Shown here: one piece after another, positions 196 through 15,848 of the stretch
Layout: each line of letters begins with the position of its first letter
Position numbering within the stretch: position 1 is the stretch's first letter
The notes under the pieces: generated by a model
Seen by the model: the letters and a program-made list of their open reading frames with translations, nothing else
Database searches by the model: none
Told to the model about the DNA's origin: nothing
Position numbers and translations under genes: made by a program
Virus record (IMG/VR): IMGVR_UViG_3300017783_000234
Location: 1-22,415 of that record
From: a virus
Length of the DNA stretch: 22,415 bases
Reading direction: 5' to 3' (one strand)

Positions 196-3100
196 TTATG
201 CCTCAATCAATGTTTGTACCACTTTGAATGTAGTCGATGTCGAAGATGCAGGTGTTGCTAATAATCTGAAATCATTACTGTTTATATCTACATCATAAGT
301 CGCTAATATACCATTCGTGGATACAGTTCCGTATTCCGTAGCAACGCCAGTTGTTCCATCATGCGTTGCATATATTTCTGTAATATGTCTTTCACTACTA
401 CTCACTGCTGTTACTAAAAATTTCGCTGCACCATATGTGGTTTTAGTTAATGTGACTAAGGCAACTTGTGTTGTTGCACTCGTCGTAGTTTCACTACCAT
501 TAAGAACAAATGTATCACCCGAACCAACTGTTATCGAACCTTCAACATCAATACCTGTTGCAGATGTTGATAGCATGGTGACATCATCGTGTTGTAAAAG
601 AACTCCAGATGCACTTCGAAGTTTAAGAGATGTTCCAGATGCAATTATAGTTCCACCATCATCAAGAGTGAGAGTATCTCCACTAGTTCCTATTGTTAAT
701 ATATTAGTTGATGGATTATATGTAAGGGATGTATCTGTTTCAATACCCTGTGTTCCAGTTGCACCATCAACAAAAGCAAGAAAAACAGATTCGTTTGTAC
801 TATTATTTGCAGATGCTGTTATACTTGTAGCAATCGCTGCAGTTCCAGATGTACTAAGAACACCAGTGCCTGCAACTGTAAGGACTGCTGCAGAGTCGAT
901 GCCTCCACCGCCACCGCCTCCTCCTCCACCACCTAATCCTGCAGGGATTCTAGCAGAATCGAGAACTCTAGAAGTAATTTTTGATGCTGCCAAGTTTGGT
1001 ATTCTAGCATCTGCGAACGCACCAGAGGTAACATTACCAGCACCAATCTCTAAAATTGGAACACGTGCGGAATCAAATACGCCAGAAGTTATTTTAGAAG
1101 TTGCTAAGTTTGGTATTCTAGCGTCTGCGAATGAACCAGAAGTAACATTGCCAGTGCCAATCTCTAAAATTGGCACACGAGCAGAATCAAATACACCCGA
1201 TGTTATCTTAGATGTAGCAAGATTTGGTATATCACTTGCACTTAATGATAATCGATCTGATGGAACTGTACCACTTCCTAACTGTGATGCATTAAGAGAT
1301 GTAAGAGATGCACCAGAACCATCCGTGTTTAAAAGTGTTCCTGATGCAGTTGGTAAAACTATAACTGCAGAACTACCTGCCGAATGCGGTGCTGCCTGTA
1401 ATGTTTGAAAATGTGCATTTGATACTTCACAGTAAAATTTAACTTTTGAAACATGCCCTGTATTAGACCTGATATCTACCATACCATCTGATATAGTAAC
1501 ACCACCAGTAGACCCATCACCACCTAAAATCGCTGAGTCTGTAGTTTTGAGTCCACTTATTTTATAACTTGGACCAAACTCAAGCGCTTTGTCTGAAAGA
1601 TCAAATAAGATACCACCAGCAGAGTCAAAAGATATATCGTTAGCAAAAGAACCAGATGTAATTTTCGATGCTGCTAAACTTGGTATTCTAGCATCAGCAA
1701 ATGCACCAGAAGTAACATTGCCTGCTCCTATTTCTAATATTGGGACGCGAGCAGAATCAAATACGCCAGAAGTTATTTTAGAAGTTGCTAAGTTTGGTAT
1801 TTCTGCAGCATCTAAACTGATTCTTGCATTATCGATAGTCCCAGTCAATAATGATGCTGGAACTGCAGTTACTTCAATATCAATATCGCCAGTACCATCA
1901 AAGTTCACACCTGTAGCTGTTACTCCTGTCACATCTATATTTCTTGCAGTTGCTAGTGCAGTTGCCTTCGCTGCTAAATTAGCAGCTGCAATTACAGGTA
2001 ATCTTGCCGAGTCTAATGTACCAGATGTGATATCTGAAGTAGCAAGAACTGGTATTCTAGCAGAGTCAAACACACCCGATGTTATTTTAGATGTTGCGAG
2101 ACTTGGTATTTCTGCAGCATCTAAACTAATTCTTGCATTATCAATAGTTCCTGATGTAATTCTATTCGCATCTATTTCTATAGCAGGAACTCTAGCTGAG
2201 TCGAAAACACCAGCATTTATTTTAGATGTATTTAAATTATCGATCCTTGCAGCAGCGACAGTTCCACTTGCAATATTAGAACCATTGAGTGACGTTAATC
2301 CCGATCCAACTCCAATGAATGCATCAGCATTGATAGTTCTGTTTGCATCAAATCTTTCATCGGTATGATTATATTGAAACGATGGTTTGTCAGCAACTAT
2401 AGATGCTCCACCCCAAAAAATACCTGCACCCGATAAATCTGCACTATCAGCAGCACTATCAGCAATAGTAAAAGTTTTCTCATTAATAGAAACATCAACT
2501 GAGTTGATTGTGGTTGTAGTTCCTTCAACTGTCAAGTTTCCTAAAATTCTAACTGTTCCTGAACTATCTCCTATCCCAGCAGGATCAATTACAAAAGTTG
2601 CTGGACCACGAAGTTGATTAAATGTAGGATTAGCAGCAGAGTCAAGAGGTTGCGGTGCACGAATATCACCTGTGCTAGTCGAGTATGTTATACCATTCGA
2701 TCCACTCAATGCGTTTCTTGCCAGAATAACTAAGTTCGCAGAGTCTACCTGTATATCATCTGCGTTTGCTGTAATGCCTTTTCCACCAACTACATTAATT
2801 GTCCTATTAGCAGCAATCGTTCCACCACCAGTTAATCCTGCGCCAGCAGTAATCGATACACCGCTATGTGCAATATGTTCATCTGCTACAAATCCAGATA
2901 AGTTGTCATGAACAATATCACCATCGGTTGTTGTAAATTCTCCTGTTCCAGAACTATAAGTGATACCAGTTCCACCAGAGAACATGTTTTTTATGTTACC
3001 TGAATCAACTTGTATATCATTAGCATTCGCTGTAATACCCTTACCGCCAACGATATCAACTGTTCTTGTGGATGCAATAGTTCCACCACCAGTTAATCCA

Positions 3101-4560
3101 GCACCTGCAGTAATCGATACACTCGTATGATCTATATGTTCGTTCGATACGAATCCAGATAAATTATCATGTACAATATCACCATCAGTTGTAGTAATAG
3201 CACCAGTGCCTGAGTTATATGTTATTCCTGTGCCACCAGATAAATGTGCTCTAACTTCAGATGCACTTGGCCCAGTGTATGTAAATTTTCCGAGTGCTGA
3301 ATCATATGCAAACGATCCATCACCGCCAGCATCTACTACATTGAGAACATCTCTTGCTCTCGACGAAGTGAAACTAGAGTCGGCGATTTTAGCATTAAAC
3401 ACTCCACCATCAGCAGTGTTAATTGTAAAAATACCGCTTGCAGAATCAAATGTAGTCGAAGTAACGCCTGCAACTGAAACATTCGATGCACTAGTGATCT
3501 GACCTTGAGCATTAATTGCTATTTGAGGAACTTGAGATGCAGAACCATAAGTCGCTGCAGATACACTTGTATCTGTTAATTTGATCTCACCTGTTCCAGA
3601 AGTGTACGTTACTCCTGTTCCACCAGATAAATGCGCTCTGACTTCTGATGCACTTGGACCAGTGTATGTAAATTTTCCGAGTGCTGAATCGTAAGCGAGT
3701 GATCCGTCTCCACCTGCATCGACCACATTTAATACATCTCTTGCTCTAGATGAGGTAAAACTTGAATCAGCAATCTTAGAATTAAATGATCCACCATCAG
3801 CAGTATTGATGGTGAAGATACCACTCGCAGAGTCAAATGCAGTTGAACTTACACCAGCAACTGCAATATTTGATGCACTCGTAATTTGTCCTTGAGCATT
3901 TACAGCAATTTGAGGAACTTGGGTAGCAGATCCATAAGTTGCTGCAGTAACACTTGTATTTGTTAAACTAATTGTATCACTAGAAGAATCATATGTGATA
4001 CCAGTACCACCAGCAATCGCAGCACCAAGATCAGATTCAAAGTTCGCTTGAGTATAAACATTTTCTACATCGAAACTAAATTCACCTGATGTGCTATTAT
4101 AAGAAAGATCACCACCAGCACTAAACATTCCTCGTATTTGACTTGTTGAACCTGACAAGTCAAAATTAACAGAAGTTCCTGCACTATCGCTAACGCTAAA
4201 CTGCGTTCCCGAATCTTTGAGAAGTAATCCTCCAAGATGTATTGTGTTTCCACTTAAATATAGATCTTTCCACTTAAACGCACTATCACCAAGATCAAAT
4301 GTACTATCTTGTGCAGGGACTAAATTACTTCCAACTTTTCCAGATAAAGTCAGATTTACTAAAGTGGCACTGTCGTTATTAATAAATTTTTGTGTAGAGG
4401 AGTCAAATGTAATTATTTGGTTTTGAATCGGATTGGTAATGGAAACGTCGTTGAGAGTTGTAAATGTTGCGCCTGTACCAGTTACACTTCGGACTGGTGT
4501 GCCAATGACGACTTTTTTTACAAAAGTTGTTTGACCTGTGGTGGTAACTCGTATTGCCAT
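196..4560 (-). CDS. Large repeat-built tail fibre protein (1454 aa)
   Basis: This is probably a trimeric receptor-binding or tail fibre protein. The N-terminus (MAIRVTTTGQ...) resembles virion-attachment ends of marine myovirus fibres. The body contains two 129-aa tandem units, two tandem units of about 87-91 aa with a GAGLTGGG motif, a 'VEGTTTTIN' fibre motif near 2.5 kb, and many degenerate copies of an ATSKITSGVFDSARVP module. An 11-glycine run follows, then a C-terminal domain of about 230 aa ending AAKFLVTA...TFKVVQTLIEA. That end pattern is common in phage fibre proteins and recalls the C-terminal head of T4 gp9 from memory. The protein is rich in Ser, Thr, Gly, Ala and Asp with few aromatics, and carries about 21 Asp-Ser-Ala tripeptides. 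It follows the 116-aa gene by seven bases, with a GAGG ribosome-binding site upstream. Fibre identity is secure; the receptor is unknown. Confidence 0.85.
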   Translation of the reverse strand: MAIRVTTTGQTTFVKKVVIGTPVRSVTGTGATFTTLNDVSITNPIQNQIITFDSSTQKFINNDSATLVNLTLSGKVGSNLVPAQDSTFDLGDSAFKWKDLYLSGNTIHLGGLLLKDSGTQFSVSDSAGTSVNFDLSGSTSQIRGMFSAGGDLSYNSTSGEFSFDVENVYTQANFESDLGAAIAGGTGITYDSSSDTISLTNTSVTAATYGSATQVPQIAVNAQGQITSASNIAVAGVSSTAFDSASGIFTINTADGGSFNSKIADSSFTSSRARDVLNVVDAGGDGSLAYDSALGKFTYTGPSASEVRAHLSGGTGVTYTSGTGEIKLTDTSVSAATYGSASQVPQIAINAQGQITSASNVSVAGVTSTTFDSASGIFTINTADGGVFNAKIADSSFTSSRARDVLNVVDAGGDGSFAYDSALGKFTYTGPSASEVRAHLSGGTGITYNSGTGAITTTDGDIVHDNLSGFVSNEHIDHTSVSITAGAGLTGGGTIASTRTVDIVGGKGITANANDIQVDSGNIKNMFSGGTGITYSSGTGEFTTTDGDIVHDNLSGFVADEHIAHSGVSITAGAGLTGGGTIAANRTINVVGGKGITANADDIQVDSANLVILARNALSGSNGITYSTSTGDIRAPQPLDSAANPTFNQLRGPATFVIDPAGIGDSSGTVRILGNLTVEGTTTTINSVDVSINEKTFTIADSAADSADLSGAGIFWGGASIVADKPSFQYNHTDERFDANRTINADAFIGVGSGLTSLNGSNIASGTVAAARIDNLNTSKINAGVFDSARVPAIEIDANRITSGTIDNARISLDAAEIPSLATSKITSGVFDSARIPVLATSDITSGTLDSARLPVIAAANLAAKATALATARNIDVTGVTATGVNFDGTGDIDIEVTAVPASLLTGTIDNARISLDAAEIPNLATSKITSGVFDSARVPILEIGAGNVTSGAFADARIPSLAASKITSGSFANDISFDSAGGILFDLSDKALEFGPSYKISGLKTTDSAILGGDGSTGGVTISDGMVDIRSNTGHVSKVKFYCEVSNAHFQTLQAAPHSAGSSAVIVLPTASGTLLNTDGSGASLTSLNASQLGSGTVPSDRLSLSASDIPNLATSKITSGVFDSARVPILEIGTGNVTSGSFADARIPNLATSKITSGVFDSARVPILEIGAGNVTSGAFADARIPNLAASKITSRVLDSARIPAGLGGGGGGGGGGGIDSAAVLTVAGTGVLSTSGTAAIATSITASANNSTNESVFLAFVDGATGTQGIETDTSLTYNPSTNILTIGTSGDTLTLDDGGTIIASGTSLKLRSASGVLLQHDDVTMLSTSATGIDVEGSITVGSGDTFVLNGSETTTSATTQVALVTLTKTTYGAAKFLVTAVSSSERHITEIYATHDGTTGVATEYGTVSTNGILATYDVDINSNDFRLLATPASSTSTTFKVVQTLIEA
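901..933 (-). repeat. Run of 11 glycine codons (fibre hinge)
   Basis: Eleven consecutive glycine codons using GGT, GGC and GGA separate the repeat shaft from the C-terminal domain of the tail fibre. The mixed codons argue against simple polymerase slippage as its only source. A flexible hinge is the obvious reading. Confidence 0.9.
940..2255 (-). repeat. Degenerate fibre modules of about 18-22 aa (ATSKITSGVFDSARVP type)
   Basis: Many copies of a module reading about LATSKITSGVFDSARVP, often alternating with ILEIGAGNVTSGAFADARIP, occur in three blocks separated by other sequence. A 48-base exact DNA repeat exists between 1070-1117 and 1754-1801, so part of the array was copied recently or kept similar by conversion. 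Confidence 0.85.
2686..3219 (-). repeat. Two tandem units of 87 and 91 aa in the tail fibre
   Basis: Unit one (3219-2959, 87 aa) and unit two (2958-2686, 91 aa) both hold TTTDGDIVHDNLSGFV, SVSITAGAGLTGGGTIA and GGKGITANA. The GAGLTGGG phrase is common in fibres of marine myoviruses. They follow the 129-aa units directly, so the fibre shaft is built from two kinds of tandem repeat. Confidence 0.9.
3220..3993 (-). repeat. Two tandem 129-aa units in the tail fibre (387-base period)
   Basis: Unit one (3993-3607) and unit two (3606-3220) begin with the same Y-x-S pattern and share long identical stretches such as FDSASGIFTINTADGG, SSRARDVLNVVDAGGDGS and YTGPSASEVRAHLSGGTG. The DNA is less similar than the protein, with many synonymous differences, so the duplication is not fresh. 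Confidence 0.9.
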
Positions 4561-4567: not shown

Positions 4568-4918
4568 TCACTTCGTTACAGAAGGAGATACTTGGATACG
4601 ACCTTCAAGAACTCTTTCTACGATTGTTTGACTATCACTATCAACGAATGATAGTTCTACATCATATACGTATCTCCCAACCTTCAATGCATTGGTTTGA
4701 GAGTTAGTAAGTGATAGTAATGCAATACCACCTGTATTGCTTGTTATAGCAGTCGTGAAACTAGTTGTGTCGGAATCTGAGCTATTATAATTTTTTTTGA
4801 GTTTTGCTGTGACAGTATGACCATTTATATTTTTTGCTGCGTCATTTTTGTCTACTAAGTGTAGTTCGATCGCTACATCTGCACCCTGATCAATGGTGAA
4901 TTCTTCGTACTGGGCCAT
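4568..4918 (-). CDS. Small virion protein, likely baseplate/fibre beta-sandwich (116 aa)
   Basis: A 116-aa protein, first gene of the operon that ends in the large tail fibre. Its pattern, an N-terminal 'TIDQGADVAIELHLVD' strand, then 'NINGHTVTAKLKK', a 'GGIALLSLTNSQTNALKVGRYVYDVEL' stretch and 'VLEGRIQVSPSVTK' at the end, matches small all-beta phage proteins found at the base of fibre genes, similar in pattern to BppU-type N-terminal domains. The start is supported by a GGAAGG ribosome-binding sequence about seven bases upstream, and a T4-type late promoter lies 53 bases further up. It probably joins the baseplate or the fibre base; this role is inferred from pattern and position. No catalytic motif is seen. 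Confidence 0.75.
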   Translation of the reverse strand: MAQYEEFTIDQGADVAIELHLVDKNDAAKNINGHTVTAKLKKNYNSSDSDTTSFTTAITSNTGGIALLSLTNSQTNALKVGRYVYDVELSFVDSDSQTIVERVLEGRIQVSPSVTK

Positions 4919-4970
4919 GATTACCTTCCGTAATTCCTTGTCGGTGTTGCCACCCTGCCTGATTTACACT

Positions 4971-4978
4971 TATTTATA
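4971..4978 (-). promoter_or_regulatory. T4-type late promoter upstream of the fibre operon
   Basis: The minus strand reads TATAAATA here, identical to the T4 late promoter core recognised by the phage late sigma factor gp55. It lies 53 bases upstream of the start of the 116-aa gene and just past the stop of the kinase-like gene. The leader between promoter and start contains a small hairpin (4943-4954, a GGTG/CACC stem closed by a GCAA loop) and then the ribosome-binding site. Confidence 0.75.
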
Positions 4979-4983: not shown

Positions 4984-5445
4984 TCAGTTTTCGAAACGAG
5001 AATTGAATTTTTTTATTTGTTCAATTAATGACTTTTCTCCATAGTGTTCCAAATCTACATAATATAATTCTTTTGTACCATCTTCGATAATAAAATTTTT
5101 GAGTGCATAATCGTGAAAAGTTTTCCTCTTACCATACACATCCACTCTTAAAACGAGATCTTCGAATATTATCTGCCGATAATCATTTTTAGTTAATTCA
5201 TTTAATTGGATACCTTTTATAAATTCTATGTCAACTGTCACTATATTTTCCTGTCTTTTAACAGAATAATTTGGTATCTTTATTCTGTTGAATTTTTCTT
5301 CTTTTAGTTGAATCAGGTTTTTTTCATATTGCATCGCAAGTAAAATGTGACGATGAGGACGTAAAGAATCAAAATCAAATGTTGTAATCTTTGTGAAAAG
5401 AAATGTATGAGTTTTGAATGATTTTTTATAGTTTTTTGATATCAT
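4984..5445 (-). CDS. Small kinase-like (phosphotransferase-like) protein, 153 aa
   Basis: I place the start at ATG 5445-5443 (MISKNYKKSF), not at the upstream in-frame ATG at 5607, because the extra 54 residues would be antisense to the glycosyltransferase-like gene. The C-terminal half carries HDYALKN at residues 111-117, which fits the H-D-x4-N catalytic loop of kinase-fold phosphotransferases, and VDLE at 130-133, which fits the metal-binding Asp of the DFG position. 'IEFIKGIQL' (73-81) looks like the hinge between lobes. No glycine-rich loop or clear VAIK lysine is visible and the protein is much shorter than ordinary kinases, so activity is uncertain. Small sugar or lipopolysaccharide kinase relatives are the nearest comparison. 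It points away from the adjacent glycosyltransferase-like cluster and shares its low GC. No strong ribosome-binding site is seen. Confidence 0.6.
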   Translation of the reverse strand: MISKNYKKSFKTHTFLFTKITTFDFDSLRPHRHILLAMQYEKNLIQLKEEKFNRIKIPNYSVKRQENIVTVDIEFIKGIQLNELTKNDYRQIIFEDLVLRVDVYGKRKTFHDYALKNFIIEDGTKELYYVDLEHYGEKSLIEQIKKFNSRFEN

Positions 5446-5464
5446 GAAAATATCTATATATAAT
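5436..5464 (+). promoter_or_regulatory. Candidate sigma70-like promoter in the divergent junction
   Basis: TTGATA at 5436-5441 and TATAAT at 5459-5464 are separated by 17 bases, a close match to the sigma70 consensus. It lies at the junction of the divergent kinase-like and glycosyltransferase-like genes. Transcription would be expected to start near 5471, which is at or just after the preferred ATG at 5468, so the fit with the downstream gene is awkward: it implies a leaderless message or a different start. The local DNA is very AT-rich and a chance match is possible. Confidence 0.3.
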
Positions 5465-5467
5465 TTT

Positions 5468-6019
5468 ATGAATATAGTTTTGTTAAAGCATGGAATCAAA
5501 TATACCTCAGATGATGTGAATAAGCAAGTTAAATCTTTGAAAAAATTTACAAACGATGATATTTTTTGCTTTACAGAAGATCCAAAAGATGTTATAATCG
5601 ATTGCATTCCTATTCCTCGTAAACCAAAACTTGTAAGATGGTGGAATAAAATGCATCTATTTAGCGATGACTTTCCTTTATTTGGTCAATCTGTTTTATT
5701 TGATCTAGATATATTAATAGAACAAAATCCATTTGAATATATTGAAAAGATAGATTGGAAGTATCCAACTTTCATCAGACGTAAATTTAAAATGGATAAG
5801 TTTTTCAGAAAACACTCCTATGATACTGAGTTGAACAGTTCAATACTTGCTTGGACTTCTCATCAAAATACTTACATATGGGATATATTCACTAAGAATA
5901 TAGATTATCATACTCGTAAATACAAAGGCATAGATAGATTTTTTTGGCATGAAAATATAGAATGGAGACAATTTGATCATGGAATATCTGACACCATTGA
6001 TTTACAGAAAGATAATTGA
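5468..6019 (+). CDS. Glycosyltransferase-like protein with DLD motif (183 aa)
   Basis: First gene of the plus-strand cassette. From ATG 5468 the protein begins MNIVLLKHGIKYTSDDVNK, which resembles the usual N-terminus of a family of small phage and bacterial glycosyltransferase-like proteins. An in-frame ATG at 5444 would add eight residues; neither start has a good ribosome-binding site. Visible marks are 'FCFTED' (33-38), a WW-K-LF motif at 58-64, and 'VLFDLDILIE' with DLD at 79-81. DLD corresponds to the DxD metal and nucleotide-sugar binding motif of GT-A folds. 'SSILAW' (124-129) and 'GIDRFFWHE' (154-162) also fit that family. Substrate and acceptor are unknown. The gene overlaps the methyltransferase-like gene by 41 bases. 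Confidence 0.7.
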   Translation: MNIVLLKHGIKYTSDDVNKQVKSLKKFTNDDIFCFTEDPKDVIIDCIPIPRKPKLVRWWNKMHLFSDDFPLFGQSVLFDLDILIEQNPFEYIEKIDWKYPTFIRRKFKMDKFFRKHSYDTELNSSILAWTSHQNTYIWDIFTKNIDYHTRKYKGIDRFFWHENIEWRQFDHGISDTIDLQKDN

Positions 6020-6614
6020 TACTATTTCATACATTTACGATAAGTCGGGAACTGATCCCGACATGGATTTATTTCGTTTTAAAGATGTCCTTAATTCGTT
6101 TAGTGAGGGACAATTTGAAAGTAAAAAATGGGCAGTCGAAGAATTAAATAAATTTATCTTTGATCAATATAATGAGTGTTTTATTATAGGTGGATGGCAT
6201 GGATTATTCTCACACCTTCTTTCGGAATCAGGATTTAGAAATAAAATTGTAAATTGCGAATTAGATATCGTATGTCATACGATTGCTAAAAGATTAAAGA
6301 TACACGAAAACATATCTTTTCGACATGGTGATGGAATCGATATATTCAACGAATATAATTATAATGATAAAATAGTTGTATGCACAGCATGTGAGCATAT
6401 CGATGAAGATGATTTAAATCTTGTTATACAGTTAAAAAAACCTGAAATGTTAATGTGCTTACAATCTAATAATTATTATGAAGTTGATAGTCATATTAAT
6501 TGCCATCAGAGTTTAGAAGACTTTGTTTCAAGTTTGCCACTCAAACAAATTTTATATTCTGGGAAGAAAAATTATAAAAACAAATATGATAGGTTTATGG
6601 TGATTGGCAGATGA
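5979..6614 (+). CDS. Class I SAM-dependent methyltransferase-like protein (211 aa)
   Basis: I choose ATG 5979 over the TTG at 5973 because GGAGA at 5964-5968 is well spaced from it. The protein has the layout of a Rossmann-fold methyltransferase. A strand and turn 'CFIIGGWHGLFSHLL' (67-81) stands in for the SAM-binding motif I, acidic 'ELD' (95-97) follows at the end of strand 2, 'GDGIDIF' lies near 117-123, and 'IVVCTACEHIDEDD' (132-145) fits motif IV. GGWHG replaces the usual GxGxG, a variant I associate with a small phage and bacterial group. The acceptor is unknown. Lying between glycosyltransferase-like genes, it may modify a sugar, which is inference. It ends with an ATGA overlap into the next gene. 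Confidence 0.65.
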   Translation: MEYLTPLIYRKIIDTISYIYDKSGTDPDMDLFRFKDVLNSFSEGQFESKKWAVEELNKFIFDQYNECFIIGGWHGLFSHLLSESGFRNKIVNCELDIVCHTIAKRLKIHENISFRHGDGIDIFNEYNYNDKIVVCTACEHIDEDDLNLVIQLKKPEMLMCLQSNNYYEVDSHINCHQSLEDFVSSLPLKQILYSGKKNYKNKYDRFMVIGR

Positions 6615-7531
6615 AGAGAGTAATATTTAGTTTGTATATTGACATACCTGAGGGTGAGCTCGATGCACAACCACCGTATCCAAACGATGACATACCAAAA
6701 ACCTATCGTACAAAAGAAGTCCTAAAACTAAATCATTATTTTCTTAAAAAGAAACACATTGAATACGCAGATAAAATAGGAGTTGACTATAAGTTATTCG
6801 AATATGATTCTGAATATAAGGAGTATAAAAATTATTTTAAAAAAAAATATCCATTTATTACAACTTACAATATCATTAATTTTTATAAAATACAAAAGCT
6901 ATATGATCTAGCTGAACAATATGATGAGATTTTGTATCTAGATTTCGATGTAGTTCCAGTGACCGCACTTAATTTTTTCGAGTCAATCGATTTTTCTCGA
7001 GGAATCGCAATATCAGATAATTTTGAATCAAGAGAATATTCTGATAGGAAAAATTTTACTCTCGATTATTTGATTCGGAAAAGTGTAATCATGAACGAGC
7101 AGGGACAAGTTCCTTCGAATAGATCACCAAATGCAAAATATTGGAACACGTTGGCATTAAATTATATAAATTTTGGTTCTACATCATCACGATCATATAA
7201 TACAGGAATAATTGGATGCACATCCGATCAACTTGATGAATTATCTTATTGGGAAAACTTTGATAATGTGATTGAACAGATGAAAGAATTAATAGAAGAT
7301 GAGTTTTTTCCAGACCATATTCGTAAATGTTTTGGATATGATAATGAAACTATCTGGGGACACAAAGTGGAACTAAATAATGTGAAGACTCAAGAACTCT
7401 ATAAAAACTGGCATTTTAGAATGTGGAAACAAAATGACATACCAGACTATGTAAATTTTATACATGTTATCGATAAAAATTTTGACAAAGTAAAACAGTG
7501 GTTGATTGATCATGAAAAAATTAATTTATAG
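6611..7531 (+). CDS. Glycosyltransferase-like protein with DFD motif (306 aa)
   Basis: Starts at the ATG of an ATGA overlap with the methyltransferase-like stop. The N-terminus 'MKRVIFSLY' looks like the first beta strand of a GT-A fold. 'YADKIGVDYKLFE' (52-64) follows, then 'IQKLYDLAEQYDEILYLDFDVVP' (94-116) with the DxD motif DFD at 111-113, an 'NTGIIG' motif near residue 197, 'DNET' near 245 and 'FIHVIDKNFDKVK' near the C-terminus. This order resembles GT8-like enzymes, where DxD binds Mn and the nucleotide sugar and a C-terminal His contacts the diphosphate. The next gene shares the same motifs and is a tandem paralogue. Donor and acceptor cannot be inferred. Confidence 0.7.
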   Translation: MKRVIFSLYIDIPEGELDAQPPYPNDDIPKTYRTKEVLKLNHYFLKKKHIEYADKIGVDYKLFEYDSEYKEYKNYFKKKYPFITTYNIINFYKIQKLYDLAEQYDEILYLDFDVVPVTALNFFESIDFSRGIAISDNFESREYSDRKNFTLDYLIRKSVIMNEQGQVPSNRSPNAKYWNTLALNYINFGSTSSRSYNTGIIGCTSDQLDELSYWENFDNVIEQMKELIEDEFFPDHIRKCFGYDNETIWGHKVELNNVKTQELYKNWHFRMWKQNDIPDYVNFIHVIDKNFDKVKQWLIDHEKINL

Positions 7532-8318
7532 TTTATATAAAGAGGATATCGAGAATCATCAATCATCAGGTGATTATAAAAAGAGTCAGTTCAAAAAATA
7601 TAAAAATCAAATAGAGCAGTCGCAAAAAACTTATGCTGATATTTGTGGTGCTGATTATATGTTACTAGATCCTACAAATACCAACTATGATAAGATACAA
7701 ATAGAGAAATTATTACTGCTCGAAGATTTTATAAAATCTTACGATGAAGTTCTTTATTTAGATTTCGATGTTATACCAGTCACCGATACTTCATTTTTTG
7801 AAAGATTCGATTTAAATTATCTTTGCTTTCACGAAGTTGTGAAAGATATGTTATCGATACAATATGAGAAACTAAAAAGCGATGTGAACTTTACTAAGTT
7901 TTCTAGTGCTATGAGACTTTTTACACCAATGAATCCATTTGTAAAAATGGCAGCAAAAAATTCTATGTTAATGTTAGATGATATTATTGGAAGAGAAACT
8001 ATTATCAATACTGGTGTTGTTGGTGGAAATAAACATAGTATAGGATTGCTCAAATTAAAAGATAAATTAAATATGATAGATGAAAAACTAGAGGAAGCGA
8101 GAGAGGATAACATTTATCCAGATAATATATCTGATATGTTTTTTCAAAACAATGAAACATACATGAGTTATCTTGTAGAGAAATTTAACTTGCCTTATCG
8201 AGAGATAGGAAGACAATGGAATTATGTATTATATACTGAAGAAGACTATCCTCATTCCAATAATCACTTTTTACATTACATATCAAAAGATTTTCATTGC
8301 TGTTTTGATTCTTCATGA
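7512..8318 (+). CDS. Glycosyltransferase-like protein, paralogue of the preceding gene (268 aa)
   Basis: I prefer ATG 7512, giving MKKLIYSLYKED, over the TTG at 7506, because the paralogue starts MKRVIFSLY. Shared marks are 'YADICGADYMLL' (41-52), 'SYDEVLYLDFDVIPVT' (76-91) with DFD at 84-86, 'INTGVVGG' near residue 160, 'PDNISDMFFQNNET' near 200-213, and 'FLHYISKDF' at the C-terminus. It starts inside the preceding gene with a 20-base overlap and no clear ribosome-binding site, suggesting coupled translation. Its 3' end overlaps the convergent 165-aa gene by 25 bases. The C-terminus (HCCFDSS) is shorter than in the paralogue, which may indicate slight truncation at the junction. Function beyond a likely sugar transferase fold is unknown. 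Confidence 0.7.
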   Translation: MKKLIYSLYKEDIENHQSSGDYKKSQFKKYKNQIEQSQKTYADICGADYMLLDPTNTNYDKIQIEKLLLLEDFIKSYDEVLYLDFDVIPVTDTSFFERFDLNYLCFHEVVKDMLSIQYEKLKSDVNFTKFSSAMRLFTPMNPFVKMAAKNSMLMLDDIIGRETIINTGVVGGNKHSIGLLKLKDKLNMIDEKLEEAREDNIYPDNISDMFFQNNETYMSYLVEKFNLPYREIGRQWNYVLYTEEDYPHSNNHFLHYISKDFHCCFDSS

Positions 8319-8791
8319 ATTTGTATTGCGTACTTCATCGCCTCTATAGCATTCATGCTTTTTCTTAATCTTTTTTTCAACTCTGAATTTTTAGAATTTT
8401 TAATTGTTTCTACATTTTCAAATAATTTTAATTTAAATAGAAAGAGTCTTTCCTTTTCCTCTTCACCTTTATCAGAAAATAAAAAGTTTGCCATATCTTG
8501 ATAGAACTCAGGATTAAGTTCGCCATTGTAGATTAATCCTTCTTGTTGAGCAAGATCTAAAACAAATTTCTCATACCCCTTTCTATATTCTCTTTCATAA
8601 TTTACAGTATATTCGTATATATCATCTATCGTGGTATGATTGAGAAGTTCTTTATATTGAACATTATTATCTTTTGCTTCCATGTATTGATTACGAATAA
8701 TTGTTTCATCGCTATCATCTTTCCACTCTGCTAATAATGTGGTTCTATCGCTGTTTAAAAATCTTGCGTTGAGAAGAGTATGTCCTTGCAT
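8294..8791 (-). CDS. Hypothetical protein at the end of the long late operon (165 aa)
   Basis: Last gene of the operon that begins at 17833. The start has a strong AGGAAG ribosome-binding sequence and lies two bases after the preceding stop. The first 30 residues ('LLNARFLNSDRTTLLAEW') look like the short beta hairpin that opens several small phage tail-associated proteins. The rest is mostly charged helix, ending in a Lys/Glu-rich stretch 'NSELKKRLRKSMNAIEAMKYAIQIHEES' from about residue 135. No enzyme motif or membrane segment is seen. I do not recognise a named family; a fibre assembly or baseplate accessory role is a guess from position. Its final codons overlap the convergent glycosyltransferase-like gene. 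Confidence 0.7.
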   Translation of the reverse strand: MQGHTLLNARFLNSDRTTLLAEWKDDSDETIIRNQYMEAKDNNVQYKELLNHTTIDDIYEYTVNYEREYRKGYEKFVLDLAQQEGLIYNGELNPEFYQDMANFLFSDKGEEEKERLFLFKLKLFENVETIKNSKNSELKKRLRKSMNAIEAMKYAIQIHEESKQQ

Positions 8792-8793: not shown

Positions 8794-9807
8794 TTACTTC
8801 CTATAAATTTTCAATGTATATGTTGTTTCTGTCTCAGCAGATCCTGTAGGCATATTTTGTGACTTGTAAGTGTCTCCATCTTGATCGTTAATTCTAACAC
8901 TAGCATCAAGAGTCGTATCAACTATTGCGTCTCCACGTGTTTGAGGTGTGCTTACATTATCAGATATTGATCCTGCATCGACTCCACTACCTTCTACATC
9001 GTATCTAATTCTATAATTAGTTCTTGAAGATGCAGAGTGAAATAATAAGTTTTCTAAAAGTGTATCAAAATCACTTGCACTGTATTGTACGAAATCTTGA
9101 TTCGTATCTGTCTGAATCGGTAAAACTATGGTTGGTGTTGAGAAAGCAGTTCCCTGATTCGTTCGATACAAGTAATAATTTTGTATTGTTAATGGTTGAT
9201 CAACATTACTCAGATTTAATTTCTCCAACGTATTTGTCCCAGTCGCACCACCGTGAACTCCAGCAGCATTAAATCTTTGGTCTGTGAATATTGGATTAGC
9301 ATTTACAAGTGTATGATTTGATAAACTTGAAGACTCAGTTGATATTCTGTATGTACCATCACGATCATTACCATCTATCAATAAATCGATTGCTGCATTA
9401 ATAAAAGTATCATACATGTCATCATGCGTCATAGCACGAAAAACAGAAGTGCTTTCACGATAGAGAGGAAATGCTACATTATTTGTATCTGCTGGTTCGC
9501 TAGGAGAACCATCACTAGTTGACATTGCGATATAATCATATGTAGTTGAAGCGCCACCATCATTAACTGCACCAGGAGAGTTGGAACCAAAAGATGAGCT
9601 ATTAGATGCCTGAGTTCCTGCAGTATCTCTCGTATCCAACATTCTTCTAATGTCAGTTCCTGTATTACCTGCGTCATATGTAAGATTGACAGATCGACTT
9701 GAACCACCAAAAAGATAAACACATCTTTGCTGAACAGCGAGTATCTGCGCTGCAGACATATCTCTAATCGATGTTCCGTCCAGATAGACAGGTGTTCGTG
9801 CGGTCAT
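8794..9807 (-). CDS. Virion structural protein, marine-myovirus type (337 aa)
   Basis: A 337-aa protein starting with a TAATG overlap on the preceding gene. The N-terminus 'GTSIRDMSAAQILAVQQRCVYLFG' is a short helical opening, followed by Ser/Thr/Asn/Gly-rich sequence with little charge and an ending 'TETTYTLKIYRK', all typical of conserved structural proteins in T4-like marine phages near gp8 and DUF4815 genes. No catalytic motif, signal peptide or membrane helix is visible. Residues 135-240 contain several 'D-x-D-G' and 'NAN'-type loops consistent with a beta-rich fold. Virion location is inferred from composition and operon; the exact position in the particle is unknown. Confidence 0.7.
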   Translation of the reverse strand: MTARTPVYLDGTSIRDMSAAQILAVQQRCVYLFGGSSRSVNLTYDAGNTGTDIRRMLDTRDTAGTQASNSSSFGSNSPGAVNDGGASTTYDYIAMSTSDGSPSEPADTNNVAFPLYRESTSVFRAMTHDDMYDTFINAAIDLLIDGNDRDGTYRISTESSSLSNHTLVNANPIFTDQRFNAAGVHGGATGTNTLEKLNLSNVDQPLTIQNYYLYRTNQGTAFSTPTIVLPIQTDTNQDFVQYSASDFDTLLENLLFHSASSRTNYRIRYDVEGSGVDAGSISDNVSTPQTRGDAIVDTTLDASVRINDQDGDTYKSQNMPTGSAETETTYTLKIYRK

Positions 9808-10271
9808 TATAAAGTTCCATCAGTATTACTTGTCGATAAAATATATCCAGCGAGGACTGTTGTTCCTGCGGAATTTTTGATTGATAAAGATTTAAGATGT
9901 GAGAGTGAACCTGCCCCATCTAATTTGATTGTACTAAATTCTGCGGAGTCAATAGTAAGTTTTGTTGCATTGAAATTAGTGCTTGTTAAATTTGTTATTG
10001 TAGCAGAATCTATATTCGCAGAGTCTGCATGAAACCCTCTTACATCAAGGACATTACCTTGTGTATTGAAAAATGTTTCTACTTGTGCAGCAATCTCTGC
10101 TTCTGTGTCAATACCTAAAACTTTTGTATTGATCTCGTTAATTGCTTCAACTAAATTACTACTTGCAGTTGTTCCAAGAGATGCTCTATCACCTAAATCA
10201 GTTGCTATTGTATTCGTTTTAGTTACAAGTGTTGATATGGGATCTGATAAATTGACTACTGTTACTGCCAT
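9807..10271 (-). CDS. Small fibre-like virion protein (154 aa)
   Basis: Joined to its neighbours at both ends by one-base TAATG overlaps. The N-terminal half has 'GDRASLGTTASSNLVEAINEINTKV' (27-51), a phrase common in phage fibre and baseplate proteins, where 'LV.AINE' forms a short trimeric coiled coil. The C-terminal half ('HADSANIDSATITNLTSTNFNATKLTIDSAEF') is a repeating Ser/Thr-rich beta pattern with three Asp-Ser-Ala tripeptides, like the body of the large fibre. It is probably a short trimeric peripheral protein of the baseplate. That role is inference; no exact homologue is recognised. Confidence 0.7.
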   Translation of the reverse strand: MAVTVVNLSDPISTLVTKTNTIATDLGDRASLGTTASSNLVEAINEINTKVLGIDTEAEIAAQVETFFNTQGNVLDVRGFHADSANIDSATITNLTSTNFNATKLTIDSAEFSTIKLDGAGSLSHLKSLSIKNSAGTTVLAGYILSTSNTDGTL

Positions 10272-10498
10272 TAGATTCTCTCTGCTATCTTATTAAGTAA
10301 ACTCTTGATCTCGTCAATATCTTTTTTAATATCGTCAACATCATTCTTCATTACTTCATGCTCTAATTCTTTTTCTTTTCTTAATCGTTTTCTCTCACGT
10401 GCAAGTTCTATCTCGGTTTTATTTATATTTAAGACCGCACCAGTTTTAGGATCACGGACATAGTTATTATATCCATCGACTTTTAAATATCTTGACAT
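10271..10498 (-). CDS. Small coiled-coil virion-region protein (75 aa)
   Basis: The N-terminus 'MSRYLKVDGYNNYVRDPKTGAVLN' (1-24) matches a short opening seen in small conserved proteins of marine T4-like phages. Residues 27-75 are a continuous charged helix 'ELARERKRLRKEKELEHEVM...DIDEIKSLLNKIAERI' with heptad spacing of Val/Ile/Leu near the end, so a coiled-coil oligomer is likely. It begins next to the preceding stop and ends in a TAATG overlap with the next gene. It is probably a small structural or assembly factor; the function is not known. Confidence 0.75.
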   Translation of the reverse strand: MSRYLKVDGYNNYVRDPKTGAVLNINKTEIELARERKRLRKEKELEHEVMKNDVDDIKKDIDEIKSLLNKIAERI

Positions 10499-12147
10499 TA
10501 TGTACTCATCGCAATCACTCTTAGACTTTGAAGTGTAGGTGCAACTGCTACATTACTCGATCTCATGACTATTTTTATCTGAAAGTTGACGAATGGAACT
10601 AGATCTCCACCTATACCACCTATCAAATACTCATAATCTCTAAACACATCAGCATTATTATCGATAGGATTATTTGTTTCCTCTGCTTGTAATACGAATG
10701 GTTGATCTGACAATACCTCATCAGACTTTGATGTTCTAAAATAAAGATCAAATGCTGTTTTTTCTGGTCTATTAGCAGCAAGCATCACCTTTAATCCTAC
10801 TGCCTCTGCGTCTAATGTAATCGGCGCAGTTATATGTTTTGAAGCAGATGATCCACCAGTTGATCTAGTTTCATCAACAAAATTAATCGGAACACTTTTT
10901 GTCTCTGACCCAACAACTTTATTCTGATCATCTATCTGAAATCCGATAGCAGTAAAAGAAGTTCTTTGCAAATCTATCATTGGCGCTACATTGGAGTCAG
11001 AAGTTCCCATACCTATTTGTAATTGGAGTGATCCATCAGTTAAAAGACCTGCACTATCAGCAACCGAATTATTTAGGATTACAAAAGGTGTCTTAGAATC
11101 ATTATCAGTATTTAATGCTAGAAAAGAAAACTCAGTATCCTTTGAATATCTGTTGCTTCTATCGGAATCACCATAATTTTCATCAGTGAAGTTCAATGTT
11201 GATGTTGCTTTTATTCCTGCTGATATTCCTGTAGCATTTGGTATCAATGCTTCTACATTCGGGTGTGCAATACTGTAAGGTATATTTTTATCACATAAAA
11301 CAGCACTACCACCTGCTGTTCCAAAACCTATGGCACTATCAAAAACATCGATTTTAAATCCAGAAAAATCTACAGAACTATCACCTTTCATCAATACTTT
11401 ACTATCAGCAACGATCCTATGTGCACCATTAATCGTCGCCTCTGGTATCCCACCAACTGCTCCACCACCATTTAAATTTATATTTACTATATCTTGCGGT
11501 TGAAAACCATGATTCGGGTGGTTTATAGTTAATATAGTTGAACCCGAATCAAATGATATTGGATCCGGATCCAATAATACCTGAGGGACAGATGTATTTT
11601 TAAGTGTGGCGATTGCTGTTGTGTGTTTAAATCTTGCTCTTTTTATCTTAAAAGCAAGATCTGTATCTTGCGCAGGAGTAAATGTTGCTGCGTTTTGACT
11701 AAAAAATAAACTACCATTCGACTGTTGTTTTGATATTCTTTCTTCTTGAGAATTTAATTTAAATTGATCTCCTGTAGAAGCAAATATTTGATAATCAGAA
11801 GTATTGGTAGCGACAACAAAACAATAATCTCTTAACCCTGTTAAAAAAATTGGTTCTTCAAACTCAAAATTAGTATGAGTGGTGTCTGCACTATATAAAT
11901 CTTCAGTGGATGTAACTATATCTGCTGCTTTTACAACAATCTCTGATCCAGGGATTATACTCGAAGAGGATGGGAAACCATTAACCATTGGTCTCAGTTC
12001 AAGTTGAACTGGTAACTTTGGAGATTTTCCTATATCTTTAAAGTATAACAAAATTTTAGTTATGAATATTCCATTTTCTTCATCTACATAAAATGATTGA
12101 GCAAGAGAATATTTATCTACTTCATATGCTAATGATGTTGTTGTCAT
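10498..12147 (-). CDS. Virion structural protein adjacent to the DUF4815 gene (549 aa)
   Basis: The start is fixed by an ATGA overlap with the upstream gene and a very strong AAGGAGGTGG ribosome-binding sequence six bases away. The first 125 residues ('SLAQSFYVDEENGIFITKILLYFKDIG...VQLELRPMVNGFPS...TGLRDYCFVVATNTSDYQIF') form a jelly-roll-like domain pattern found in structural proteins of T4-like and other marine phages, usually next to DUF4815 genes. The rest is Ser/Asp-rich, ending 'VVAVAPTLQSLRVIAMST'-like beta sequence. No catalytic residues are apparent. It is likely a baseplate-associated or fibre-linking protein. A perfect 20-base palindrome lies in the gene at 11557-11576. Confidence 0.75.
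   Translation of the reverse strand: MTTTSLAYEVDKYSLAQSFYVDEENGIFITKILLYFKDIGKSPKLPVQLELRPMVNGFPSSSSIIPGSEIVVKAADIVTSTEDLYSADTTHTNFEFEEPIFLTGLRDYCFVVATNTSDYQIFASTGDQFKLNSQEERISKQQSNGSLFFSQNAATFTPAQDTDLAFKIKRARFKHTTAIATLKNTSVPQVLLDPDPISFDSGSTILTINHPNHGFQPQDIVNINLNGGGAVGGIPEATINGAHRIVADSKVLMKGDSSVDFSGFKIDVFDSAIGFGTAGGSAVLCDKNIPYSIAHPNVEALIPNATGISAGIKATSTLNFTDENYGDSDRSNRYSKDTEFSFLALNTDNDSKTPFVILNNSVADSAGLLTDGSLQLQIGMGTSDSNVAPMIDLQRTSFTAIGFQIDDQNKVVGSETKSVPINFVDETRSTGGSSASKHITAPITLDAEAVGLKVMLAANRPEKTAFDLYFRTSKSDEVLSDQPFVLQAEETNNPIDNNADVFRDYEYLIGGIGGDLVPFVNFQIKIVMRSSNVAVAPTLQSLRVIAMST
11557..11576. repeat. Perfect 20-base palindrome inside the 549-aa gene
   Basis: The sequence TATTGGATCCGGATCCAATA equals its own reverse complement over all 20 bases and also contains GGATCC twice in tandem. 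On the message it could form a hairpin. It encodes part of a Leu-Asp-Pro-Asp-Pro stretch. No function is assigned. Confidence 0.9.
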
Positions 12148-15100
12148 CTTCCACCTCCTTGGGTGCCACTTCTCCCACGACGCACGAACCCTGTTGAGGG
12201 TTTAGTTGCTCCACTAGTGTTTTTCGTTTTAACAAACTTCCCACCCTTAAATACATACTTATTACCCTTATGACGATCTCTTTCTTTTTTATCTCGTCTA
12301 CTATTATTCGCTCTTGGTTTTGGTTTAGGAGCAATTTTTTGACTCTTAAGAGTAATCACACGAGTTGTTTTTACGTCCTCCTCAACAGTCTCTAATAATC
12401 CTGATGATGTGAAAGCAGCAACTGCACTCGACTGTGCATTATCTTTATTAAATTTACTTAAATCTAATAAAACAAATTCTTTTGTTCCAGTTTTAAATGT
12501 TTTTGCTTGAATGAAGAAACTACCCTCTATCGCACCATCTGAATCGGAAACAAGAATGCTTGCTCCCTCAGGGTGTGCTGTAATGCTTTTTTTAGTATTA
12601 CCATAATCAGTTTGATCATCAGCATATCTTTTAAATGTTTCTTCTCTAACAAAAGATGCAGATAAACTAGCAGGAGAAACTAATTTCTCATCAAAATATG
12701 CAAAATGCTGAGTATTAGGTCTCAATGCCTCTGCTTTGAAATATATTTTCTTTTGCCTCATAAATGGAATCAATGCCACATCTAATACTTTTGTGCCTAT
12801 TACTTCTCTAATTTTTTCGTCTGTCACAACTTTATTGAAGATACTATTTTTATTGTTGCTTGTTCTAGACCCAACTTTTAAATCTTCTAACTCTTTACCA
12901 CCCCAGTTCCACTCATGATTATTCCACAAGTATGCCTGTTTAGTATCGAGTTGAATGCCTCCATCAACGACTTTACCAGTTCTTGTCTCGGTATCTCTCC
13001 ATTCATCAGAACTTGGAGATAATTTTAATATTCCCTTAAATTGAGTAAAGTTAAATGGATTGATAGTGATTGCTGTACTTGCTTTTGATGCATCAATAAA
13101 ATCTGCAGAGTCATAATCAATATAAAGATTGTCACCTCTTTTGACTATATTTGTAGAGTTTGATGAATCCCATATCAATCTGATGTTATCTTCGTTAAAA
13201 GCAGGATGTAAGAAAGATGCAAAAGGATCTAATGCTGCAGCATAGTCTACGTTATCAGTTGCTGATAAAATTTGATCTTCGAAATTATCAGCAAAGAAAC
13301 CTGACCTCGTTCTATTTAATCCACTCGAATCTAACACCTGAAAGTTTTTAGTATCCATTTCTAAGAGTGTAAGAGTTGTTACCTCTTCGAGTCGATCAAC
13401 TCTTTTCTCTAATCTCGCAATATCTTTCATAGTAAATCTTTTATGATCGATCGGTTGCATAGTTAGATCTGAGTCGTGAAGTGTGTTAGCACCAAGAATG
13501 ACATCATATAATCCCATCGTGCTGATAGGTGTTGGTGGAAAGTTATCAGCAGGTGCTCCTGTATCACCTCTGATAAATTCTAACGTTCCTTCGTTAGTAA
13601 TAACTAATTTTCCAGATTGTTCTAGATAATACGATCCTGTTAAAGTGGTTAAATCATTAGGTTGTGGTATCTCATTAATTATCGCATCTCCGCTGGAAAA
13701 AGTACCATTGGCAGAATTTTTTACTGATCTGAAATCTAAAACATCTGCTAAACTAATTGTGGTTCCATTCGCTAATGTGTGTGTAGGAATATTTTTATAT
13801 CCACCGATCGCAGCTGAGTCATAAGAGTTGACACTAAAAAAGTCACCACCATCGTGAGTGAAGTGCCTAAAAGTTGCATAGACACCAGTCGTTGGCATTG
13901 ACTGGCCACCTTTCAGAATGAGTCGACCTTCAGTATAAAAATTATCTCTTTGCCCATTATCTAAAATAAATCTCGATGAATAATCTTGAAGTCCGCTCGC
14001 AGAGTCTTTTATAGTTGTTATATCAAATATATCTGCTTTATTAAGTTGTAAAGATAATGTTCCACTACCATTTGAATCTATATTAGATGAAACTGAAGTA
14101 TCGATTTGCCCAGAATTAGCTGCTGTTAAATTTTTATCTCTTTTCGTGCCAGTTTCACTTTGATAATATAAAATTTCATATGTACCATTGGCTGCTGAAT
14201 CAAGAGTAACAGTGGCATCTTGTAAATTTGCACTCACACTTACAGTTTGAGTTCCTATAAAAACATCACTATCATCTTTTGCGAAAATCCAATCACCCTG
14301 ATTAACATATGATACGTTGCTTCCTAGAGTTGGCATAGATATAGTTTTAGCAGATAGTGTTCTTGTAATGCGTTTTTGTTTTCTTAGCACTATAGAACTA
14401 AGCGCAGATGGTCTCTGATCAGGAAGATCAAATAAAAGATCATTTTTATCTTGCTCAAAAATTACTGCCTGATTATTTTCTCTTACAATATTAAACCAGT
14501 TATTTGAGTCCGATCCAATACTTTTCGCATCTCTGAAATTTTTATCAGTGTTCATAATCGTATCAAAGATATGATACTTATAATTTGCTCCATCTTCAGA
14601 GACAGCACGAACTCTTACAGTTCCTAATTTTCCTGATGCACCACCAGCGAAGTCTGCACTATCTTGTATATCAAGTAATTCGAAAGTTGATATATCAGGA
14701 AGTCCATTTGTATTACCTTGTGACGAATTAACTTTTACAAAATTACCGAAATCTGCAGGAACTGCTTGATTAGTTTCTGAAAATGTATCTAAAGATTTTT
14801 GTACACGTATCGAAGATGGTCCACGTTCAACTCTGAATCCATCTACGACTGCAACACCATCACTCACTTTTAACAATAAATGTGTATTTGCCGAATCTGT
14901 TTCAAATTTTGCTTTGAATTGTTTAATTAAATAATCACCAGAGTTTTCTTTTATTCTCTGAGCAACAACTTGTTTAGGTGCATTAAATGCATCTGTTTCA
15001 TTTACAGTTTTTACAACTCCACCATCTTGTAGTTTAACGAGAAATACAAAACTTATTGTGGTCCCAGCGATATCTGTTTTATCAATTAAAGAAAGTCTGA

Positions 15101-15839
15101 TTCTATATCTATCCGCACCTGGAGATGCTGTATTTGGGACTGATCCTTGATTGTCAAATAATGATGTATCGTCACTAGTTGTTACAACATCTTCTGTTAC
15201 TCTGAAACCAATATCTCCAGTGAATGTATCAGAATATTTCGATACTATTAAAGACTGATCTTCGGTAAATACGAAATGACCTTTCGCATAAAAAATACCA
15301 TTTTGAACATTTACAACGATACCAACACCAGTTGCATCAGATGTTGCAGTTGTTAAAACTGTAGTTCCGTTTGTTATGTTTGTATTATCTGGAGCGCGAA
15401 GAGTTCCTTCACCTGCTGTAGCATCTTTTGTATATGTATATCTTACATAAAGTGTTGCTGGATTATTTGCTTCATCTCCTGAAACTGCAGCAACAACTTG
15501 TAAAACTTCAAATTTTATTCCATCACTTCCTGTACTAGTAAACTCAGTACCAACTAAGGTCGATGTATCTGTAGGGAGTGCATTACTCGTGGTGTTTAGT
15601 TTGATAAACTCATAAGAGTTATTGACTGTCACACCACCTGCTTTAATCATAGCACCTTCAGTGTAAATATTATTACCCATTCTTTCTATTTGGTTTTGTA
15701 GAATGGTTTGTGCCTGAGTTAATTCACGCGCTTGCACAACTCTCCCACTATTGAATAATATCCGATGAAAATTACTACTATCTGTAAAATCATCTTTATA
15801 AGTGGTGGTAAAGGTTGTGTCAGTAAGATTCGTTGCCAT
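12144..15839 (-). CDS. DUF4815-like virion structural protein (1231 aa)
   Basis: The N-terminus is diagnostic: 'YKDDFTDSSNFHRILFNSG' (14-32) followed by 'RVVQARELTQAQTILQNQIE' and 'GNNIYTEGAMIKAGGVTV'. This is the opening of the DUF4815 family of large phage structural proteins, common beside gp8 in marine T4-like phages. The body is mostly beta-type sequence, with a short helical segment 'MKDIARLEKRVDRLEEVTTLTLLEM' near residues 803-827 that looks like a coiled coil. The last 62 residues are strongly basic (20 Lys/Arg against 3 Asp/Glu) and end in GGGR. It follows gp8 by nine bases with only a weak GAGA-like ribosome-binding site. It probably forms a baseplate or fibre-connecting structure; the family role is not known in detail. 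Confidence 0.85.
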   Translation of the reverse strand: MATNLTDTTFTTTYKDDFTDSSNFHRILFNSGRVVQARELTQAQTILQNQIERMGNNIYTEGAMIKAGGVTVNNSYEFIKLNTTSNALPTDTSTLVGTEFTSTGSDGIKFEVLQVVAAVSGDEANNPATLYVRYTYTKDATAGEGTLRAPDNTNITNGTTVLTTATSDATGVGIVVNVQNGIFYAKGHFVFTEDQSLIVSKYSDTFTGDIGFRVTEDVVTTSDDTSLFDNQGSVPNTASPGADRYRIRLSLIDKTDIAGTTISFVFLVKLQDGGVVKTVNETDAFNAPKQVVAQRIKENSGDYLIKQFKAKFETDSANTHLLLKVSDGVAVVDGFRVERGPSSIRVQKSLDTFSETNQAVPADFGNFVKVNSSQGNTNGLPDISTFELLDIQDSADFAGGASGKLGTVRVRAVSEDGANYKYHIFDTIMNTDKNFRDAKSIGSDSNNWFNIVRENNQAVIFEQDKNDLLFDLPDQRPSALSSIVLRKQKRITRTLSAKTISMPTLGSNVSYVNQGDWIFAKDDSDVFIGTQTVSVSANLQDATVTLDSAANGTYEILYYQSETGTKRDKNLTAANSGQIDTSVSSNIDSNGSGTLSLQLNKADIFDITTIKDSASGLQDYSSRFILDNGQRDNFYTEGRLILKGGQSMPTTGVYATFRHFTHDGGDFFSVNSYDSAAIGGYKNIPTHTLANGTTISLADVLDFRSVKNSANGTFSSGDAIINEIPQPNDLTTLTGSYYLEQSGKLVITNEGTLEFIRGDTGAPADNFPPTPISTMGLYDVILGANTLHDSDLTMQPIDHKRFTMKDIARLEKRVDRLEEVTTLTLLEMDTKNFQVLDSSGLNRTRSGFFADNFEDQILSATDNVDYAAALDPFASFLHPAFNEDNIRLIWDSSNSTNIVKRGDNLYIDYDSADFIDASKASTAITINPFNFTQFKGILKLSPSSDEWRDTETRTGKVVDGGIQLDTKQAYLWNNHEWNWGGKELEDLKVGSRTSNNKNSIFNKVVTDEKIREVIGTKVLDVALIPFMRQKKIYFKAEALRPNTQHFAYFDEKLVSPASLSASFVREETFKRYADDQTDYGNTKKSITAHPEGASILVSDSDGAIEGSFFIQAKTFKTGTKEFVLLDLSKFNKDNAQSSAVAAFTSSGLLETVEEDVKTTRVITLKSQKIAPKPKPRANNSRRDKKERDRHKGNKYVFKGGKFVKTKNTSGATKPSTGFVRRGRSGTQGGGR

Positions 15840-15848
15840 ATTTTTTCT

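Follow-up and report, generated by a model that had tools for sequence, protein, structure and literature searches.

The 22,415-nucleotide stretch analyzed here in full (the window; positions 1 to 22,415 of IMG/VR record IMGVR_UViG_3300017783_000234) belongs to a marine T4-like myovirus and carries, at positions 4984-8318, a cassette of non-structural genes. The reading which we favor, at a probability of about 40%, is that a pelagimyophage-like lineage keeps this cassette as the conserved core of its host recognition cluster, and that the enzymes, made late in infection, glycosylate the phage's own peripheral tail. As predicted from sequence comparison and one structural model, the core would consist of three GT-A-type glycosyltransferases (GTa, GTb and GTc) and a probable methyltransferase (MT), encoded between a fiber-assembly gene and the baseplate genes. 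With respect to the target, we lean slightly to the phage tail over a host glycan because of a late-type promoter, the seat of the cassette among tail genes, and a signature of Asp-Ser followed by a small residue (D-S-small) in the tail proteins. It is this signature, rather than the cassette, that a specialist would not expect.

Cassette genes and predicted functions of the core proteins

Five non-structural open reading frames (ORFs), four on the plus strand and one on the minus strand, were located within a block of minus-strand virion genes. The cassette is flanked by g165 and the fiber-assembly-like gene g116 and, except for the one small minus-strand gene, runs opposite to the virion genes. 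A preliminary description of this DNA had listed five non-structural genes, four of them against the virion gene order; the ORFs were confirmed, with the starts of GTa and of the minus-strand gene moved. The genes were considered real because relatives keep homologs of them in the same order and place.

4984 to 5445, minus strand: small kinase-like protein of 153 aa, an optional member, from homologs and weak kinase similarity
5468 to 6019, plus strand: GTa, 183 aa, predicted GT-A-fold glycosyltransferase, from an AlphaFold2 model, Foldseek and an invariant DLD motif
5979 to 6614, plus strand: MT, probable class I methyltransferase, from weak matches
6611 to 7531, plus strand: GTb, putative GT8-like glycosyltransferase, Glyco_transf_8 (PF01501) E 9.3e-5, invariant DFD motif
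7512 to 8318, plus strand: GTc, putative GT8-like glycosyltransferase and GTb paralog, Glyco_transf_8 E 0.0014, invariant DFD motif

The start of GTa was moved to 5468 (MNIVLLKHG), as in relatives. GTa had no family match in the profile libraries and none in a profile search of the PDB. Its AlphaFold2 model (predicted local distance difference test score, pLDDT, 68.6) produced 85 Foldseek matches at E up to 0.001, the PDB matches including glycogenin, UGGT and the capsid glycosyltransferase of PBCV-1 (best E 1.9e-5), and its DxD motif, DLD at D87/D89, was invariant in eight aligned rows. A Rossmann-like GT-A fold with a DxD motif is therefore supported for GTa by a model of moderate confidence. 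GTb and GTc both fell short of the PF01501 gathering cut-off of 24.3 bits (22.6 and 18.7 bits, respectively), 5 of 13 GTb/GTc members reached the family at E<=0.01, and profile searching of the PDB for GTb/GTc gave no matches; the DxD motif, DFD at D111/D113, was invariant in 13 rows. These weak similarities suggest that both are GT8-type glycosyltransferases. The three DxD glycosyltransferase-like proteins of the preliminary description were thus recovered at differing strength, and the structure prediction and fold search that it had proposed supported a GT-A fold in GTa.

MT starts at the ATG at 5979 and GTc at the ATG at 7512, and a TTGATCATG stretch is common to both starts (5973-5982 and 7506-7515). 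With respect to MT, Pfam Methyltransf_25 was matched by two of nine aligned members (best E 0.0021), the window protein itself having no Pfam match, and the MT profile matched spermidine synthase in the PDB at E 0.017. MT is accordingly only a probable class I methyltransferase, so that the earlier label was weakly borne out.

Conservation and inheritance of the cassette

Since named phages gave no DNA match to the window, relatives were drawn from IMG/VR. Scanning with GTa yielded 15 loci, nine of them close, and a g165 profile yielded 74 loci; GTb, MT and the minus-strand ORF, each scanned as a single protein, found none. The lineage of the window was delimited by similarity to its g549 and g1231, and the 74 g165 loci formed two groups, 20 window-like (g549 at least 35% identical) and 54 resembling Pelagibacter phage Mosig (Mosig-like); several are near-identical phages, such as L037 and L038.

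Eleven distinct complete g165-g116 intervals were compared (window, L005, L008, L009, L013, L023, L024, L032, L036, L064 and L094). GTb and GTc were present in all eleven; MT, and a GTa at about 50% identity or above, were missing from L024 alone. A radical S-adenosylmethionine (SAM) gene was found in eight, the window, L023 and L024 being without it, and the minus-strand gene in three. Overlaps blurred the ORF labels of the interval in L008 and L036, where other comparisons show GTc and MT. Radical SAM domains were confirmed by Pfam in three examples, with SPASM in one. Order and place of the cassette were the same in ten of the eleven intervals. In FastTree phylogenies the lineage was set apart by a branch of 99% local support both for GTb (14 lineage rows) and for GTc (13 lineage rows), and the g549 tree had the same split with a branch support of only 46. 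As these trees split alike, the core appears to have been inherited with the tail genes.

The low GC content reported in the preliminary description was exact at both places named (15 of 60 at 6241-6300 and 16 of 60 at 7021-7080). Over 4984-8318 it was 0.285, versus 0.393 before and 0.350 after, and non-overlapping 60-mers with 16 or fewer GC numbered 21 of 55 inside the cassette, 1 of 83 before it and 26 of 234 after it. The window shares this property with the five relatives checked (0.27-0.32 versus 0.35-0.37 in the relatives). When contigs of bacterial and archaeal genomes were scanned, four matches came up, all with g165 and g337 as well and all phage-like. Loci L111-L114 lie on contigs binned to metagenome-assembled genomes of Flavobacteriaceae, Gammaproteobacteria and Rhodobiaceae; these are likely misbinned phage sequence, because phage tail genes are present on them.

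The preliminary description had suggested an accessory surface-modification module and a comparison of the locus in related phages. A cassette gained freely as an accessory was not supported. What this comparison returned was a conserved core with swapped extras: judging from the sequences, GTa-MT-GTb-GTc appears to have been vertically kept, and only an outer layer, comprising the minus-strand gene and the radical SAM gene, gained and lost. The sugar-tailoring character that it had proposed was strengthened by the radical SAM, carbamoyltransferase and GDSL-esterase-like genes which join the cassette in relatives; the latter two lie between the minus-strand gene and g116 in L064 (16907-19127).

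Late-type promoter elements

Two elements of the window resemble late promoters of the T4 type.

5455 to 5462, plus strand: TATATATA, a degenerate copy of TATAAATA, 5 nt before GTa
4971 to 4978, minus strand: TATAAATA, late-type promoter of g116, in relatives the divergent partner of the GTa element

Late promoters of cyanophages are given as NATAAATA/TATAAATA in the available part of PMC2984593. Five distinct relatives (L005, L008, L009, L011 and L013) have an exact TATAAATA 5 nt before the GTa start, and in all five a divergent TATAAATAG for g116 stands opposite. We predict from this arrangement a T4-type late promoter directly before GTa in the relatives, the spacing of which would leave GTa nearly leaderless. 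In the window, the starts of the minus-strand gene and GTa are 22 bp apart (5441-5470) around the palindromic TATATATA, which could drive both genes. The leader of g116 (window 4919-4978, minus strand) is also conserved by eye, with GGCAGGG, a short hairpin-like inverted repeat of changing letters and then GACAA, and recurs in L005, L007, L009, L011, L013, L023 and L024. Rfam gave five matches around the promoter region and g116 leader of the window copy, all far below the gathering score and none credible.

Asp-Ser-small signature of the tail proteins

D-S-A was the most enriched tripeptide of the window virion proteins even without the fiber (17 versus 2.8 expected). Over 17 loci of the lineage it occurred 396 times versus 40.8 expected (z 55.6, the next tripeptide reaching z 17), while no tripeptide was comparably prominent in 34 Mosig-like stretches. 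The bordering and signature-bearing genes of the window are as follows.

196 to 4560, minus strand: fiber, 1454 aa, D-S-A 21 versus 1.5 expected
4568 to 4918, minus strand: g116, fiber-assembly-like, left border (phrog_1084, 5.9e-23; phrog_3304, L-shaped tail fiber assembly, 5.7e-16)
8294 to 8791, minus strand: g165, conserved right border, convergent with GTc with a 25 bp overlap, by which the 74 related loci were found
9807 to 10271, minus strand: g154, virion protein, D-S-A 3 versus 0.11 expected (lineage 65 versus 2.7)
10498 to 12147, minus strand: g549, second half of VrlC, D-S-A-bearing (lineage 21 versus 2.9)
12144 to 15839, minus strand: g1231, first half of VrlC, D-S-A 6 versus 0.68 expected (lineage 47 versus 8.2)
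15849 to 17219, minus strand: gp8 baseplate wedge (g456), identified by tblastn, D-S-A-bearing (lineage 33 versus 3.6)

Across the lineage, enrichment of D-S-A was 12-fold in the fiber, 9.5 in g116, 24 in g154, 7.4 in g549, 5.7 in g1231, 9.1 in gp8, 7.3 in g201 and 9.6 in g339, and only 0.4 in g337. The tripeptide was absent from g165, gp6, gp25 and every cassette enzyme, and was at background in the inner virion proteins of two long contigs. Contrary to this pattern, the fiber island of a third long contig, L110, held little D-S-A. The residue after D-S was strongly chosen, with A at 10.6 times expectation, D at 4.8, S at 3.7, N at 2.2 and G at 1.9, and V, L, F, R and P depleted (0.1-0.4; DSL 0.3, DSV 0.4). 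The variants DTA, ESA and NSA stood at 0.2, 0.6 and 0.8 of expectation.

All 74 g165 loci were scored for D-S-A, and D-S-small was counted in 47 of them together with the window, L005, L011, L012, L001, L002, L022, L113 and L114. In each of the 20 lineage loci D-S-small exceeded expectation by a factor of 2.6-5.2, and in 36 others the factor was at most 1.5. The 27 loci left out, which are near-copies or have little tail sequence, agreed in their D-S-A counts (13-23 in the four lineage loci L025, L027, L028 and L030; 0-3 in the other 23). Carriers of the signature are the window (196-4560 and 9807-18891), L005, L011, L012, L023, L024, L026, L029, L031-L033, L035-L038, L040, L047, L064, L092 and L094.

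Several simpler accounts were rejected. L026 was not a case of loss, since its D-S-A (2 versus 1.7) was low but D-S-small was kept (21 versus 8.0). A cause at the level of DNA was excluded by 43 different nonamers, background codon use and near-confinement to the coding strand (six loci), and a single spreading repeat as the whole cause by 122 sites in 46 alignment columns of gp8, g549 and g1231. Eight cyanophage regions and one Ochrobactrum phage showed that D-S-A is not a general cyanophage trait; the count in S-B68 (12 versus 7.1) came from one repeat. As a sequence pattern, D-S-small looks like the acceptor rule (sequon) of a modifying enzyme.

Minus-strand gene and further neighbors

The minus-strand gene was taken to start at 5445 and not at 5607 because its true homologs start adjoining GTa; residues 1-53 of the 207-aa form match relatives only as antisense to GTa, and that form was rejected. 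Homologs occupy the same position in L064 and L094, lie within the cluster of L061 and stand beside the fibers in S-TIP37. An ABC1-kinase match was obtained with one homolog only (E 0.025). In an alignment of five rows, Asn117 and a DFG-like Asp131 were invariant, the catalytic-loop Asp was kept in four and missing in L061, and the preceding His was missing in three. The AlphaFold2 model, built from only four alignment rows, was poor (pLDDT 55) and had no Foldseek match at E<=0.001. The kinase-like label of the preliminary description is thus doubtful and not established, and with these residues missing in some homologs and the model poor, the phosphorylation step that it had envisaged was unsupported.

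VrlC is assigned to two genes in the window (10498-15839) because one end of Mosig VrlC is matched by g1231 and the other by g549. It is likewise divided in most of the lineage, and is a single ORF of about 1,700 aa in L032, L036 and L040; many Mosig-like phages have one of about 2,000 aa. The window gp25 best matched Phage C48C1 (44%), then cyanophages, Melnitz and others.

Target of the enzymes

In the reading that we favor, the enzymes would be made late in infection and would work in the cytoplasm, drawing on nucleotide sugars of the host to assemble a short, methylated glycan step by step. Their preferred target would be the peripheral tail proteins of the phage itself (VrlC halves, gp8 and fibers), decorated during assembly, and in relatives the tailoring of this glycan would fall to the optional radical SAM, carbamoyl and kinase-like genes; the presumed benefit is changed adsorption or tail shielding. 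A narrower form, which we hold to be unlikely, is a cytoplasmic, sequon-directed O-modification in which the cassette enzymes would modify Ser in D-S-A/D/S/N/G. Consistent with it, sites are multiplied in VrlC, gp8, fiber-assembly and fiber proteins and not in inner virion proteins, and GTb and GTc are in all complete intervals. Searches of the open-licence literature listed no phage tail in which a glycosylation sequon common to a whole lineage can be read from the sequence.

Five observations weigh against the favored reading. The TATAAATA motif was not enriched across the window (4 versus 2.9 expected), so that the late-promoter argument rests on position and conservation. D-S-small is lacking in Mosig-like phages although they have GTb, MT and GTa-like genes at this place, by which the rule that cassette and signature go together was rejected. 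Conversely, the GTa of L024 and L047 is divergent despite their having the signature, L024 also lacking MT. The link between cassette and signature is thus a hypothesis. The GTa and MT of L005 are 73% and 65% identical to those of the window versus 37-46% for baseplate proteins, which disfavors varying acceptors. Finally, the published reading, in the available part of PMC7029224, takes GT8 mainly as a lipopolysaccharide family and is a change of the host O-chain against coinfection.

That enzymes and signature are unrelated, the latter being a structural habit of loops and fiber repeats in one lineage, is in our judgment an even bet; it is compatible with either target, and our confidence figures therefore do not sum to one. 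The Mosig-like group and the many sites within fiber repeats speak for it, and it has to contend with the strong preference for Ser over Thr, for Asp over Glu or Asn and for a small next residue, with the scatter of sites over alignment columns in three non-fiber proteins, and with codon use at background.

Modification of the host surface, in which the O-chain of lipopolysaccharide or another envelope glycan is altered to block competing or sibling phages (superinfection exclusion), as proposed for pelagimyophages, is a serious contender to which we give somewhat worse than even odds. The GT8 similarity, the published interpretation of such cassettes and the same enzymes in phages without the tail signature are all in keeping with it, as are the carbamoyl and esterase genes of one relative, which suit O-antigen chemistry. 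It fits less well with the late-type promoter before the first gene and with a seat among tail genes retained across deep divergence, and among the interval genes neither a flippase nor a polymerase nor an initiating lipid transferase was recognized. A recently acquired island from a host genome, suggested by low GC and the reversed strand, is highly improbable given the low GC shared by relatives, the vertical trees and genome matches on phage-like contigs only.

Glycosyltransferase cassettes are common in marine T4-like phages, and their target has so far been guessed to be host lipopolysaccharide. The version in this lineage is easy to test because it is a small four-gene set with defined starts and a late-type promoter, and D-S-small makes a sharp peptide-level prediction for a virion-tail target. 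If this is true, the virus would be writing its own modification sites; if false, a tenfold amino-acid signature in one phage lineage would still be unexplained.

Comparison with known systems

Mycobacteriophages carrying glycosyltransferase genes are reported to have glycans on their capsids (Freeman et al. 2023, as cited in the available part of PMC11256854), a precedent for phage glycosyltransferases tied to virion proteins; the phages are unrelated, and the target is the capsid. The general O-glycosylation of Bacteroidota, as set out in the part of PMC12871550 available, likewise uses a sequon in which Asp precedes Ser and Ala often follows, and there too enrichment in target proteins was taken as evidence. 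That system is periplasmic and accepts Ser or Thr followed by A/L/V/I/M/T, unlike the present pattern of Ser only followed by A/D/S/N/G (DTA 0.2x, DSL 0.3x, DSV 0.4x), with sites in virion proteins assembled in the cytoplasm.

Pelagibacter phage Mosig EXVC030M (MT647606) shares the MT-GTb pair and a GTa-like gene next to a g165 homolog, but its interval is 17 kb, with many more enzymes and no D-S-A enrichment. Most genes at this place in Mosig (L001 1388-17992) encode oxidoreductases, radical-SAM-like proteins (annotated MoaA), aminotransferases and hydroxylases.

The closest comparison is the host recognition cluster of pelagimyophages (PMC7029224, Zaragoza-Solas et al. 2020, as far as the available part describes it), a variable region of phages that infect SAR11, placed after VrlC within the structural genes, among fiber genes, and ending at the neck gene gp14, with several GT8-type glycosyltransferases and radical SAM cassettes that come and go. 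Here the cassette lies between g165 and g116, with GTb and GTc below the curated cut-off and GTa of predicted GT-A fold. The window ends inside the fiber region, and gp14 was not identified in the longest relative, which was followed past the fibers. The present cassette differs in its compact conserved quartet, VrlC in two genes and the D-S-small signature of the tail; the window also has a kinase-like gene and lacks a radical SAM gene. It is a cluster of this known kind, with a core set and an outer variable layer.

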